Source of the DNA: Methylocella tundrae
GTDB taxonomy: Bacteria; Pseudomonadota; Alphaproteobacteria; Rhizobiales; Beijerinckiaceae
NCBI RefSeq assembly: GCF_901905185.1
Contig: NZ_CABFMQ020000075.1
Location: forward strand, 1-64,000
DNA: 64,000 bases
Direction of reading: 5' to 3'
A program made the translations under genes and the position numbers. The notes below the pieces were generated by a model that did no database searches, was not told the DNA's origin, and saw nothing but the letters and a program-made list of their open reading frames with translations. This document shows positions 15,957 through 22,195 of the stretch, one piece after another. Numbering within the stretch: the stretch's first letter is position 1; every line of letters begins with the position of its first letter.

Positions 15957-16816
15957 GCCGCGACCTTGGCGTCGAGCCAGGCGATGATCTTCTCGGCGGT
16001 GATGTCACGCCATGCCGTGTCGATCATCAGCCCATGCGGCGCGCCGGGCAGCACTTCGAGGTCGCCCTGCCAGAAATCGGCGATCTCCTGCAGCGCCGAG
16101 CGCGGCAGGAATACATCGGCGTCGCCGCCGAGCACAAAGGTCGGGGTTTTTTTACCCGCATCGAAGAGGCTGAGCGCCGGCGGCGCCAGCAAGTCGGCGC
16201 TGGCGCGGGGCGACTCCCGCTGAATTTTTTGAAAAAGCCCCGATTTGGATTCGAGCGTTGACCGGCTGGAAAAAAGCGCCCGGCTGATCACCGCCGGCGA
16301 TGTCCAATTGGGTCCGAGGCTTTGCAGCAGGGCCAGCTGGAACAGCACGTCCGGCGCGAACATCGTCATGTGCAGCGCCGACGATCGAAGCCCTGAGGGC
16401 GGCGCCGAGGCGAGCGCCACAAGAGCCTTGGCCTTGCCGCCGCGGGCGAGATAATGCTGGGCGACGAGGCCTCCCATCGAATGGCCGATCAAAACCGGCT
16501 CGCCGCCGATCGCTTTGGCGGCGATTTCGACGTCGTCCACATAGTCGCTGAAGGACGCGCTCGAAAGATCGCCTTCGCTCGCGCCATGACCACGCAGGGA
16601 GACGGCGTAGGCGGGATAACCCCGATCGGCGAAAAAGCGTAAAAAATGTTCCTCCCAGATCCAGGCGGCGCTATACGCCCCGTGGACGAAAAGGACGGGC
16701 GGACGCCCGGCCGGCGCGTTTGGAAGGCGATGCAAGACTTCCTGTTTCACGAAAAATTCCTGTATTTGCGCCGGCGGCGATGAAAATTCGGGCGGCCGCG
16801 CCCATATCGCCGACAT
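15953..16816 (-). CDS. Alpha/beta-fold hydrolase
   Basis: The 287-residue cytosolic protein has the alpha/beta hydrolase nucleophile elbow GHSMGG (Ser113), an oxyanion segment [12 protein letters not shown], the acid loop GGDADVFLP and catalytic His in APHGLMID. This looks like an intact lysophospholipase/esterase-type enzyme. The substrate cannot be predicted. Its stop codon is formed by the end of the palindromic repeat. It is divergent from gatC, with a 133-base shared upstream region. Confidence 0.88.
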
Positions 16817-16886
16817 GCGGGCGGCGGTGCGGGCCGAAGACTTTTCCTTGCGGGAATCCTCCGCGTGCGGCCGGTCGCCTCGCTGT

Positions 16887-16916
16887 TTGCCCAGCGCCGA
16901 CTGCCGGTGCTATAGG
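16887..16916 (+). promoter_or_regulatory. Candidate promoter of the gat operon
   Basis: TTGCCC (16887-16892) and TATAGG (16911-16916) are separated by 18 bases and lie 33 bases upstream of the gatC ATG. The match to the housekeeping consensus is fair. Confidence 0.4.
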
Positions 16917-16949
16917 CTGCCTCTTCGTAATCATGGCAAGGAAGAACTC

Positions 16950-17237
16950 ATGTCCGTCGATCAGGCGACCGTGCGGCGTATCGCGCATCTTGCTCGTATC
17001 AAGGTCAGCGATGAAGACGTGCCACATCTGCAGGAGGAGCTCAATGCCATTTTGAGCTTTGTCGAGGAGCTGGCCAGCGTCGACGTCGAGGGAATAGAGC
17101 CAATGACCTCGGTCATGCCGATGCCGATGAAGAAACGTCCCGACGTCGTGACCGATGGCGGGATCGCCGACGCCATCGTCGCCAATGCGCCGGAGCGCGA
17201 CGACCACTTCTTCAAGGTGCCGAAGGTGGTTGAATAG
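16950..17237 (+). CDS. gatC: GatC, Asp/Glu-tRNA amidotransferase subunit C
   Basis: GatC (95 residues, typical length) wraps around GatA and joins it to GatB in the GatCAB complex, which converts misacylated Glu-tRNA(Gln) and Asp-tRNA(Asn) to the amidated forms. The family pattern [10 protein letters not shown] near the N-terminus, the L[10 protein letters not shown] helix and the final [16 protein letters not shown] are all present. The ATG at 16950 has AGGAAG upstream. gatA follows after 57 bases. Confidence 0.95.
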
Positions 17238-17294
17238 AAGCGTTCAGGCGCTCGACAACCCGGAACGATAACTCAAGGCAGAACGGACGCGACG

Positions 17295-18776
17295 TTGACC
17301 GCACTCACCGACCTTACCCTCACTGAGGCGCGCGATGCGCTTTTGAAGAAAGAAGTCTCCGCCGTCGATCTCGCGCGCGCGCAGATCGCCGAGATCGAGA
17401 AGGCGCGAACCCTCAACGCTTTCCTCGCCGAGACGCCGGACAAGGCCTTGGCGATGGCGGCGGCGTCCGATACGCGGATCGCCAAGGGCGAGGCGGGACC
17501 GCTCGAAGGCATACCTCTTGGGATCAAGGACCTCTATTGCACGGAAGGCGTGCCGACGACCGCCGCGAGCCATATTCTCGAAGGCTTCACGCCGGCCTAT
17601 GAGTCGACCGTCAGCGCAAATCTCTGGCGCGACGGCGCGGTGATGCTGGGCAAGCTCAATCTCGATGAATTTGCGATGGGCTCGTCGAACGAGACCTCTT
17701 ATTTCGGGCCGGTGATCTCGCCGTGGCGGCGCAATGGCTCCGACGCGCCGCTGGTTCCCGGCGGCTCCTCCGGCGGCTCGGCCGCGGCGGTCGCGGCGCG
17801 GCTCTGCTTTGGCGCTACGGCGACGGACACGGGCGGCTCGATCCGCCAGCCGGCGGCCTTCACAGGCACCGTCGGCGTCAAGCCGACCTATGGGCGCTGC
17901 TCACGCTGGGGCATCATCGCTTTCGCGTCCTCGCTCGATCAGGCAGGACCCATCGCCCGCACGGTTCAGGACGCCGCGATCCTTCTGCGCTCGATGGCGG
18001 GCCATGATCCCAAGGATACGACGTCGGTCGATGCGCCGGTGCCGAACTATGAGGCCGCGCTCGGGCGCGGCGTCAAAGGCCTGAAGATCGGCATTCCGAA
18101 AGAATACCGGCTTGACGGCATTCCCGCCGAGATCGACGCGCTCTGGCGCCAGGGCGTCGAATGGCTGAAAGAGGCGGGCGCCGTGATCGTCGACATTTCA
18201 CTGCCGCATACGCGCTATGCCTTGCCGGCCTATTATATCGTGGCGCCGGCGGAAGCCTCGTCGAACCTCGCGCGCTATGACGGCGTGCGCTACGGCCTTC
18301 GCGTTCCGGGCAAGGACATCATCGGCATGTATGAAGCGACGCGCGCGGCCGGCTTCGGCAAGGAAGTGCGACGTCGCATCATGATCGGCGCCTATGTTCT
18401 TTCGGCCGGATATTACGACGCCTATTATGTGCGGGCGCAGAAGATCCGCACCTTGATCAAGCGCGATTTCGAACGCGCCTACGCCGAGGGCGTCGATGCG
18501 ATCCTGACTCCGGCGACGCCGTCCGCGGCTTTCGGCCTCGGCGAAAAGGGCTCCGCCGATCCGGTCGAAATGTATCTGAACGACGTCTTCACGGTGACTG
18601 TGAATATGGCGGGCCTGCCGGGCCTCGCCGTTCCCGCGGGGGCGTCGAGCGAAGGGCTGCCGCTCGGCCTGCAACTGATCGGGCGCCCCTTCGATGAGGA
18701 GACTTTGTTCGCAGTCGCGAAGGTCATTGAAGACGCGGCGCCGAAGGTGAAGCCGCCGCAAAAATGGTGGGCTTGA
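17295..18776 (+). CDS. gatA: GatA, Asp/Glu-tRNA amidotransferase subunit A
   Basis: GatA is the amidase-signature glutaminase subunit that releases ammonia from glutamine for the GatB active site. The Ser-cisSer-Lys triad fits Lys78 ([10 protein letters not shown]), Ser158 ([10 protein letters not shown]) and Ser182 ([10 protein letters not shown]). At 493 residues it is full length. The start codon is TTG at 17295. The stop TGA (18774-18776) is followed without a gap by the GTG of the TIR gene, an unusual interruption of the gatCAB order. Confidence 0.96.
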
Positions 18777-19586
18777 GTGAAACACTTCGTTTGCCAGATT
18801 TTGCTGGGGGGTAATATCGTCTGGCAGCAATTACAGGGCCAACATGACGAAGGATTGGGAGTAGCTCTACACTTCGTTTTGGGGAGCCAGCGCTTCCAAA
18901 GAGAGGCGGAGGAATTCTTAGAAGGCGTACTCAGACGGAACGAGATCAAATGGCTGTCTTGGAAACCCCAGGGATGGGATCTGGATGTAGAAGCCTTCAG
19001 ACAGTCGTTCGAAATCCTGCAGAGTGACGGCTGGTTGAAAGGTCAATTGACACTCAAAATGGACTTCCAAGCAGAGCGCAGAGACGAGTTCGGAAGGGTA
19101 AGAGAACATGCGTATGGTGAAATTGTCGTCCGTCCCAGCGACGTTGAGCGCCATATGCCAAAACGCGTCTTCCTGAGTCATAGGGGTGTCGATAAGCCGA
19201 TGGTCCGACGTTTCCATAAGGCGCTGGAACAGGTCGGCTTTCAGCCTTGGCTTGACGAGGACGCTATGGCAGCGGGCGTCAAACTCGAACGTGGCCTTTT
19301 GCAGGGGTTCCACGAGTCTTGCGCAGCGGTCTTCTTTGTGACGGCGAATTATCGAGACAGCGGATATTTGGGTACGGAGATTGACTACGCGATCGCGGAA
19401 GAACGGACGAAAGGCGATCGGTTCAAGATTGTTACCTTAGTTTTTGCGGACGCCGACCACGTCACCCCTGAAGTGCCGGACCTGCTGAGAGCTTACGTTT
19501 GGAAGACTTGTGTTCATGAACTCGACGCTTTTGCCGAGATCGTCCGTGCGCTTCCATTGCGCGTAGAAGGGATCAATTGGAAATGA
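18777..19586 (+). CDS. TIR-domain protein embedded in the gatCAB operon
   Basis: The 269-residue protein has two parts. Residues 127-262 form a TIR domain: first strand and box KRVFLSHRG (129-137), a BB-loop region with QPWLDEDAM (156-164) and E201 in YLGTEIDYA at the position of the catalytic glutamate of NAD-cleaving TIR domains. Residues 1-126 match no family I recognise; they look like a mixed alpha/beta globular domain with several Trp and no membrane segment. The GTG start is the base after the gatA stop and the TGA overlaps the gatB ATG (ATGA), so translation is probably coupled on both sides. Base composition is visibly less GC-rich than gatA and gatB, suggesting later acquisition. 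A nucleotide-signalling or defence role is inference. Confidence 0.8.
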
Positions 19587-21070
19587 ACACGCACGCAAAG
19601 CCATCCAAACTCATCAAGGGCGCGACCGGCGACTGGGAAGTCGTGATCGGCATGGAGATCCATGCTCAGGTCACATCGCGATCGAAACTGTTTTCCGGCG
19701 CCTCCACGCAATTCGGCAATGAGCCCAACGCCAATGTCTCGCTCGTCGACGCGGCGATGCCTGGCATGCTTCCGGTCATCAATGAGGAATGCGTGGCGCA
19801 GGCTGTCCGCACGGGGCTTGGCCTTGAGGCGCAGATCAACCTGCGCTCGGTGTTCGACCGCAAGAATTACTTCTATCCCGATCTGCCGCAGGGCTATCAG
19901 ATCTCGCAATACAAGAGCCCCATCGTCGGCGAGGGAGTCGTCACGGTCGACGTGTCGCCGACCGAGCAGATCGAAGTCGGCATCGAGCGGCTGCATCTCG
20001 AGCAGGACGCCGGCAAATCGTTGCATGATCAGTCGGCGACGGAGTCGCTCGTCGACCTCAACCGGTCGGGCGTCGCGCTGATGGAGATCGTATCGAAGCC
20101 CGACATGCGCTCGTCCGATGAGGCGCGCGCCTATGTCACCAAGCTGCGCACGATCCTGCGCTACATCGGCTCTTGCGACGGCAATATGGAGCAGGGCTCC
20201 TTGCGCGCCGACGTCAATGTTTCGGTGCGCAGGCCGGGCGAGCCTTTGGGCACGCGCTGCGAGATCAAGAACGTCAATTCGATCCGCTTCATCGGCCAGG
20301 CGATCGAGACCGAGGCGCGCCGCCAGATCGGCATCATCGAAGACGGCGGCGTCATCCAGCAGGAGACGCGCCTGTTCGATCCCGCGCGCGGCGAGACGCG
20401 TTCGATGCGCTCCAAGGAAGAAGCGCACGACTATCGCTACTTTCCCGATCCCGACCTGCTGCCTCTCGAGTTCGATCAGGCTTATGTCGATCGGCTGAAG
20501 GCCGGGCTGCCCGAATTGCCGGACGCCAAGAAGGCGCGTTTCATCAAGGACTATGGGCTGCCGCCCTATGACGCCGGCGTGCTCGTCGCCGATAAGGAGA
20601 CCGCCGATTATTATGAGGCGGCACTCGGCTTCGGCGGCGTGACGCGCGATCCAAAGCTCGTCGCCAACTGGATCACCGGCGACGTTGCAGCCTATGCGAA
20701 TTCAGTCGGGCTGCCGGTCGCGCAGACACATATCAAGCCCGGCCAGATCGCCGGGCTCGTCGACCTCATCGCCGACGGCACCATATCCGGCAAGATCGCC
20801 AAGGACGTTCTCGCCATCATCATCAATGAAGAGAAGGACGGCGATCCGAAAGCTATCGTCGAGGCGCGCGGCTTGAAGCAGGTGACCGACGTCGGCGCCA
20901 TCGCGGCCGCGGTCGACGCCATCATCAAGGCCAATCCGGATAAGGTCGCGCAGGCGCAGGCGAAGCCTTCGATGCTTGGCTGGTTCGTCGGCCAGGTGAT
21001 GAAACAGACTGGCGGCAAAGCCAATCCGCAAGCCGTCAATGATGAGCTGAAATCGAAGCTCGGCATCTGA
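19583..21070 (+). CDS. gatB: GatB, Asp/Glu-tRNA amidotransferase subunit B
   Basis: GatB binds the misacylated tRNA and carries the kinase/transamidase site. The 495-residue sequence has the family start [12 protein letters not shown], the metal/ATP-site region [14 protein letters not shown], and [12 protein letters not shown] with [11 protein letters not shown]. The C-terminal YqeY-like tail is intact. I chose the ATG at 19583, which overlaps the preceding TGA by four bases, over the TTG two codons earlier. The gene is separated from gatA by the TIR gene, so supply of the essential third subunit depends on reading through or reinitiating after that gene. Confidence 0.95.
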
Positions 21071-21754: not shown

Positions 21755-22195
21755 ATGGTTAAGGCAACAACCAAGAAGACGCCAGCGAAGAAGACCGCTG
21801 CGAAGAAGACAGCAGCGAAGAAAACTTCGGCTGCGAAAAAGAGCGCGCCCGCCAAGGCCGCTGTGAAGAAGACAGTGGCTACGAAGGCGCCGGCGAAGAA
21901 AACCGCGACGAAGAAAATGGCGACAAAGAAGACCGTCGCCAAAAAGACCGTTGCGAAAAAGACCGTCGCCAAGAAAGCCCCGGCCAAGAAAGCCGTCGCT
22001 CAAAAGGCGACTGCCAAAAAGACGGTTGCGAAAAAGGCTGTGGTGAAGTCGACGGCGCGCAAGGCCCCCGCGAAGTCAGCCAGCGTCAAGAAGGTCGCCG
22101 TCAAGAAGGCCGCGGTCAAGAAGGCCGCCGTCAAGAAAACCGCGCCCCGCAAGCCAAAGGCGCCTCCCCCGGCGACTCCGCCGGAGTCGGCTTAA
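21755..22195 (+). CDS. Histone H1-like Lys/Ala-rich DNA-binding protein
   Basis: The 146-residue protein consists almost entirely of degenerate KKTxAKK, AKKAxxKK and VKKAA repeats with a proline-rich end (PKAPPPATPPES). It is extremely basic and resembles bacterial H1-like nucleoid proteins (AlgP/HC1-type tails). No folded domain is visible. The ATG at 21755 is preceded by GGAGGGG, a strong ribosome-binding site, and a strong terminator follows, so it is a single-gene unit, probably well expressed. Expected roles are nucleoid compaction or global regulation; the repeat number is likely to vary between strains. Confidence 0.8.
   Translation: MVKATTKKTPAKKTAAKKTAAKKTSAAKKSAPAKAAVKKTVATKAPAKKTATKKMATKKTVAKKTVAKKTVAKKAPAKKAVAQKATAKKTVAKKAVVKSTARKAPAKSASVKKVAVKKAAVKKAAVKKTAPRKPKAPPPATPPESA

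Follow-up and report, generated by a model that had tools for sequence, protein, structure and literature searches.

A TIR-domain gene between gatA and gatB of Methylocella tundrae: a candidate one-gene defence protein in a permissive operon slot

Introduction

SpbK, encoded by ICEBs1 of Bacillus subtilis, offers a described plan with which the gene reported here may be compared. Two reports (PMC12847820, PMC8880864) present it as a one-gene TIR NADase of 266 aa that is carried on a mobile element and possesses a sensor N-terminus, namely a 4-helix bundle that precedes the TIR domain and binds the portal clip; the protein is activated by a phage portal protein. In one of these reports (PMC12847820), SpbK alleles were tested under their own native promoter.

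We have analysed a 64,000-nt stretch of Methylocella tundrae DNA (contig NZ_CABFMQ020000075.1, positions 1 to 64,000; hereafter the window) in which a gene for a TIR-domain protein of similar length lies between gatA and gatB. An earlier, sequence-only reading of the window had drawn attention to this gene, and we describe here its layout, relatives, probable mode of entry and predicted expression.

Results

The TIR-domain gene is a complete frame of 269 codons on the + strand (18777-19586). The gatA stop, TGA at 18774-18776, directly abuts its GTG start codon (18777-18779), and its own TGA (19584-19586) overlaps the gatB ATG (19583-19585) as ATGA; coordinates and profile matches thus bear out the placement and the 2 junctions given in the sequence-only reading. 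Since gatA and the TIR gene are in one reading frame, a single TGA stands between them. The gatC, gatA and gatB products each scored over an NCBIfam equivalog cut-off. The features of the locus are as follows.

16950..17237, + strand: gatC (TIGR00135, 97.5 bits; cut-off 47.1)
17295..18776, + strand: gatA, with a TTG start as mechanically listed (TIGR00132, 550.9 bits; cut-off 481.1)
18765..18796, + strand: predicted mRNA hairpin around the gatA stop and the TIR GTG (-10.7 kcal/mol for 18765-18799)
18777..19586, + strand: TIR-domain gene, 269 aa, GTG start; its product begins MKHF.., and the full-length relative L145 begins MHY..
18777..19160, + strand: N-terminal domain, residues 1-128, a putative sensor; no Pfam family above cut-off
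19161..19583, + strand: TIR domain, residues 129-269, with the candidate catalytic Glu E201 (PF13676, E 1.8e-16)
19583..21070, + strand: gatB (NF004015, 834 bits; cut-off 628)

Downstream of gatB, at 21755-22195, the window also encodes a lysine/alanine repeat protein with 15-nt tandem repeats, which by eye is histone H1-like.

The match to Pfam TIR_2 (PF13676) covered residues 131-253 at 61.2 bits, against a curated cut-off of 28. E201 aligned with the Glu of the 'nyELDG' stretch of AbTIR, a residue that is catalytic in AbTIR, and it was invariant in both alignments made, including all 8 of 8 aligned proteins when the window protein is counted. An AlphaFold2 model derived from eight sequences had a mean pLDDT of 68, the TIR half being the more confident, and the best fold matches to that half were the TIR domains of SPARTA (Z 15.3) and SARM1 (Z 13.3). 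The same half also matched non-TIR N-glycosidases, for example MilB and DNPH1 (Z about 12), so that the fold alone is no proof of NAD+ as the substrate; neither does a TIR domain by itself separate NAD+ hydrolysis from cyclisation. Family match, conserved Glu and modelled fold together indicate that the domain is likely an NADase, consistent with the NAD-consuming role proposed from sequence.

The N-terminal domain was modelled with low confidence (mean pLDDT 51) as a mixture of strands and helices. It was 30% identical to the N-terminus of L145, a protein from an IMG/VR contig, and we found no relatives of the domain beyond L145. Over its full length L145 was 38% identical to the window protein (256 columns) and started at the same place (MHYLLQSIG, compared with MKHFVCQIL in the window), its start being an internal ATG of a longer frame; this agreement speaks for a complete gene whose natural start is GTG 18777. 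Two further candidate relatives were set aside as chance matches: G1192 (E 6.8e-4), which has an internal stop and lies antisense to a 589-aa ORF, and a Methylorubrum megaplasmid match (E 0.2) that overlaps a 1317-aa ORF, by eye a conjugation-type ATPase. In the reading that we prefer (see Discussion), the domain most likely senses a phage component.

Relatives of the gene are few. A match was found in 1 of 397 genomes of the order (E 1e-8) and in 1 of 398 genomes of the phylum (five-sequence alignment, E 1e-15), and each time it was the window's own genome. Two of the 15 genomes of the genus matched at E 1e-3, the second (G005) in the TIR domain only, where 93 residues of a longer frame were 29% identical. 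The window's own genome contained seven TIR_2 matches, six of them over the Pfam cut-off, and at E 1e-3 nothing in it was related to the window TIR protein besides the protein itself. The five TIR_2 matches over cut-off other than the window protein lie on C90 (L156, L157), C82 (L154) and C13 (L155) of this genome (G000); three of the five fall within about 9 kb on one contig and are possibly a defence cluster.

In the collections searched, nine relatives were obtained: proteins from a Raymondbacteria MAG and from Psychrobacter (both from the scan of genome contigs), from a 3.5-kb Citrobacter plasmid, from a conjugative Enterobacter plasmid, and from five IMG/VR contigs. The viral scan gave no match with the single protein and these five contigs with an alignment as query; repeated with the L145 protein, it returned the contigs of L145, L147 and L149 again and nothing new, and the phage collection searched gave no match. 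Weaker plasmid matches, confined to the TIR part, were kept out of the nine. The TIR domain was 58%, 52% and 51% identical to proteins from distant bacteria, and identity to the whole window protein was 28-42% over seven relatives. The three TIR-domain identities, together with a full-length relative that has an equivalent start (L145), argue that the frame is more than a product of chance. Seven of the nine are on mobile-element records (the two plasmids and the five virus-listed contigs), a setting that is partly a sampling bias because virus and plasmid collections were searched. Pfam placed a terminase by L148 and an integrase by L145 and, weakly, by L149, and by eye we could add a portal (L148) and an integrase (L147); the L145 contig is listed as viral, with little besides its integrase that looks mobile by eye. 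The relatives appear, again by eye, to be lone genes. Visual comparison of their N-termini gave three kinds, one having a 'WPLLSG'-like stretch (L020, L037, L038, L146-L148), a second common to L021 and L149, and a third made up of the window protein and L145. On these grounds we place the TIR domain of the window protein in a rare subfamily, the members of which carry at least 3 unlike N-terminal domains.

The sequence-only reading held that the gatCAB order is normally uninterrupted, and the family of the window's host did not conform to this. Among 119 family genomes, drawn evenly from a larger group and searched with the GatA and GatB proteins at E 1e-100 each, 116 had both proteins. The 2 genes were linked in 86 of these (one strand, within 15 kb) and on different contigs in 23; the other 7 had both on one contig, but at a greater distance, in reversed order, or with one gene on each strand. 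The median gatA-gatB gap in the 86 linked genomes, the window's included, was 557.5 bp, and a gap of <120 bp was seen in only 9. From 76 linked genomes (intervals L065-L140, which comprise every linked genome with a gap of 109 bp or more apart from G000 and G005; the gap of G472 is approximate) we collected 114 interval ORFs of at least 70 aa. The largest clusters were a small conserved membrane protein (20 members; named by eye) and chorismate mutase (18). For the Pfam and PADLOC scans 112 of the 114 were used, two from G493 being left out; Pfam gave CM_2 (18), Uma2 (4), Radical_SAM (3), DUF559 (2) and others. ORF calls and gatB starts were mechanical. On that footing 67 intervals had a + strand ORF: in 43 of them the first such ORF lay no more than 20 nt from the gatA stop, in 14 the last lay equally close to the start of the gatB match, and 10 showed both. 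The commonest interval genes recur across genomes, which suggests that they are older residents.

No TIR gene was encountered in this company. Of the 29 Pfam families matched by the interval ORFs, none of the 25 listed was a TIR family; the eight families matched by PADLOC among the 112 ORFs included none that is a TIR protein by name; a profile of the window TIR subfamily had no match at E 1 among all 114 ORFs; and in 85 other gatA-gatB regions (76 from the family and 9 from the genus), searched in six frames, it again revealed no relative, the positive control being the window protein itself at 230.8 bits. The gatA-TIR-gatB arrangement, looked for in related genomes as the sequence-only reading had suggested, was thus found in the window's genome only. 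In this family, a gene that abuts gatA is ordinary and a TIR gene in that position is not, and the gatA-gatB interval is a permissive slot for many unlike passenger genes. The striking placement of the TIR gene is explained by such a slot together with selection for an exact fit.

Within the genus, gatA and gatB were linked in 10 of 15 genomes in the stretch examined, and contig ends limit some of the five in which linkage was not seen. The distance from the gatA match end to gatB was 44 to about 810 bp in the linked genomes, and gatC, found in nine of the ten, was separated from gatA by about 16-185 bp. In G007, G012 and G009 (L030-L032), a search of the ~1.8, 8.8 and 7.4 kb available upstream of gatB gave no gatA, so some members of the genus may have the 2 genes apart. 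In three genomes, G003, G005 and G008 (L024, L026, L029), the gatA-gatB junction is occupied by a gene that by eye is of DUF559 type and is flanked by long inverted repeats (CCCACCCGTC..GACACCCTCCCC and its complement); the gene is broken in G008, and G011 (L028) has a bare repeat without the gene. To judge from its sequence, the unit looks like a small mobile cassette, and in the literature searched we found no report of DUF559 with inverted repeats.

The base composition of the TIR gene sets it apart from its neighbours, as the sequence-only reading had observed. Its G+C and GC3 were 0.527 and 0.585, compared with 0.652 and 0.796 for gatA and 0.621 and 0.817 for gatB. Ranked with all 62 ORFs of 150 aa or longer that were called mechanically over the window and the 19.9 kb that follow, it had the lowest G+C and the third-lowest GC3, the two ORFs with lower GC3 being of high overall G+C and possibly shadow ORFs.

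An empty site was found in G014, the only further genome of this species among those searched. Aligned with the window, its flanks were 97.9% (9,966 columns) and 98.3% (9,486 columns) identical, and its junction, from the gatA stop (here TAA, counted in) up to the base before the gatB ATG, was 67 nt without the TIR gene. The gene is therefore present in one and absent from the other of the 2 genomes of this species compared. The 2 sequences diverge at the last base of the final gatA Ala codon (18773) and match again from the gatB ATG onward. At its end the G014 spacer, GGAACGGTC, is similar by eye to that of G013, GGACGGTC, and from this likeness we infer the direction of change: it suggests that a short spacer is the ancestral state and was replaced by the TIR gene in the window strain. 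Taken with the odd composition, the lack of the gene in a conspecific genome that is 98% identical upholds the later entry proposed earlier, and it is most likely that the gene entered the slot recently.

Several routes of entry were considered. We rejected transposon insertion, as the segment 18500-19900 contained no direct repeats and one short palindrome only. Entry by way of the DUF559 cassette was also rejected: allowing up to 3 mismatches, we found no copy of the 22-nt cassette motif in the window, nor did its 20-nt core occur in the window's own genome when up to 1 mismatch was allowed. We likewise rejected homologous recombination with DNA of a diverged donor, since the mismatch density relative to G014 was not raised beside the junctions. 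A donor of the same species is possible.

No promoter-like site was found on the + strand from 16700 to 18776; one 9-of-12 match lay inside the TIR gene, and 0.8 are expected by chance in the scan. Computer folding predicted that the TIR start region (-12 to +3) is largely closed, with a mean unpaired probability of 0.148, compared with 0.602, 0.558 and 0.569 at the gatA, gatB and gatC starts, respectively; only 1.3% of 600 random window positions were as low, in a measure that was chosen after the 101-nt fold had been seen. In the predicted hairpin the gatA end UGGUGGGC pairs with TIR codons, and both the stop of gatA and the GTG of the TIR gene lie within the structure, the outer left arm consisting of gatA codons and the outer right arm of TIR codons. 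The 101-nt fold itself had a modest z of -1.47, and total fold energy around the TIR start was ordinary, 36% of random positions being equally stable. In coupled re-initiation, the usual logic is that the ribosome ending the upstream gene opens such a hairpin. A TIR start buried in a hairpin across the gatA stop fits gatA-dependent translation, and we infer from the model, in agreement with the sequence-only reading, that TIR translation is coupled to that of gatA. Pairing with the 16S tail was calculated at -6.0 kcal/mol for the TIR start, -5.4 for the window gatB and -5.2 for its G014 counterpart; the random mean was -3.0. The TIR start is thus not weaker in pairing than that of gatB, and direct initiation would be compatible with this value. 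The 3' end of the TIR gene contains a run rich in purines, GTAGAAGGGA, on which the gatB start can draw for pairing with the 16S tail, and since -5.4 is close to the -5.2 of G014, gatB keeps a comparable start context.

Discussion

We consider it rather probable that the gene encodes a horizontally acquired, single-gene, SpbK-like abortive-infection TIR NADase that borrows the expression of gatCA. In the proposed mechanism the N-terminal domain would sense a phage component, and the C-terminal TIR domain, once clustered, would cleave NAD+ and so stop the infected cell. The gene would have replaced the short gatA-gatB spacer in the window strain; having no recognisable promoter of its own, it would rely for its translation on ribosomes that, on completing gatA, open the hairpin over the GTG, and its 3' end would supply the start context of gatB. 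Most of the sequence-only reading fits this account, namely late entry, an NADase-type TIR domain and coupling to gatA; the uninterrupted gatCAB order and a translation-sensing role do not.

The gene might instead be a passenger without present function, a harmless insertion kept by chance or decaying. Its occurrence in a single genome, at a junction that elsewhere hosts many unrelated genes, one of which (the DUF559-type gene in G008) is broken, would agree with this. However, the frame of 269 codons is intact, the Glu and the TIR motifs are conserved, the fit is exact on both sides and the start is, by prediction, placed for coupling, and we regard a functionless passenger as rather unlikely.

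We judge it unlikely, too, that the protein is a signalling TIR of the Thoeris or SAVED type, which would make or answer a nucleotide signal and have a separate partner elsewhere in the genome. PADLOC matched SAVED_TIR (E 6e-10), PDC-S66 (E 7.5e-7) and ThsB (E 0.0076), Thoeris type III ThcB4 (NF058526) was matched at 26.2 bits, and a TIR domain considered alone does not tell hydrolysis from cyclisation. Yet these likenesses are at the level of the domain, within about residues 124-222. The SAVED_TIR profile (PDLC02012) was matched at positions 10-105 only of its 404, the ThcB4 score is far under the equivalog cut-off of 220, and the retron TIR (NF042941), likewise matched in the TIR part only, gave 26.4 bits against a cut-off of 600. 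Further, no Thoeris effector gene such as ThsA adjoins the TIR gene, both neighbours being gat genes, and the relatives, too, seem by eye to stand alone. A STALD search of the window's own genome gave no match and is uninformative, as its control matched nowhere either.

That the protein is a translation-linked regulator, sensing or modulating tRNA amidation by GatCAB, is very improbable, for shared operon position and junctions are all that speak for it, and a full-length match was limited to 1 of 15 genus genomes and 1 of 397 of the order, with no relative in the 85 other gatA-gatB regions. Nothing was found that links the gene to tRNA amidation, and in the literature searched we found no paper that treats GatCAB and a TIR domain together and no report of a gene inserted between gatA and gatB in Alphaproteobacteria.

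Returning to the defence reading, a broader and decidedly tentative proposal, which we think doubtful as it stands, is that of a promoterless defence gene in an essential operon: the gatA/TIR hairpin would gate its start, its dose would track host translation, its loss would damage gatB and so make it self-preserving, and the gatA-gatB gap would be a general slot for passengers.

If the preferred reading is correct, a likely one-gene TIR defence protein sits among core translation genes, where searches for defence islands would miss it. The small TIR subfamily defined here has exchangeable N-terminal domains, each of which is a candidate phage sensor. The open gatA-gatB slot, together with an empty-site control from the same species, makes it possible to test how acquired genes are placed and expressed within essential operons.

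Comparison with known systems

Chorismate mutase, the small membrane protein (named by eye), DUF559 and Uma2 genes occupy the gatA-gatB slot as the TIR gene does, often abutting the gatA stop, and none of these or the other interval genes is related to the window TIR domain. SPARTA TIR-APAZ and SARM1, the best structural matches of the TIR half, were 12-20% identical to it among the matches listed. The TIR domains of both are clustering-activated NADases; no APAZ, Argonaute, ARM or SAM part was seen in the window protein. SAVED_TIR, PDC-S66 and ThsB/ThcB4 are antiphage or candidate antiphage TIR proteins that resemble the window protein in the TIR part only.

With SpbK, as it is described in the reports cited above, the likeness is one of plan. 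The 2 proteins are of nearly equal length (266 and 269 aa) and each has an N-terminal domain followed by a C-terminal TIR domain, although in sequence the match is weak (9phb, E 0.15). The N-terminus of SpbK is a 4-helix bundle, whereas that of the window protein is modelled, with low confidence, as alpha/beta; and SpbK is carried on a mobile element, whereas the window gene, also lone, is chromosomal and lies inside gatCAB. Probably, then, the window protein follows the plan of SpbK with a different sensor.
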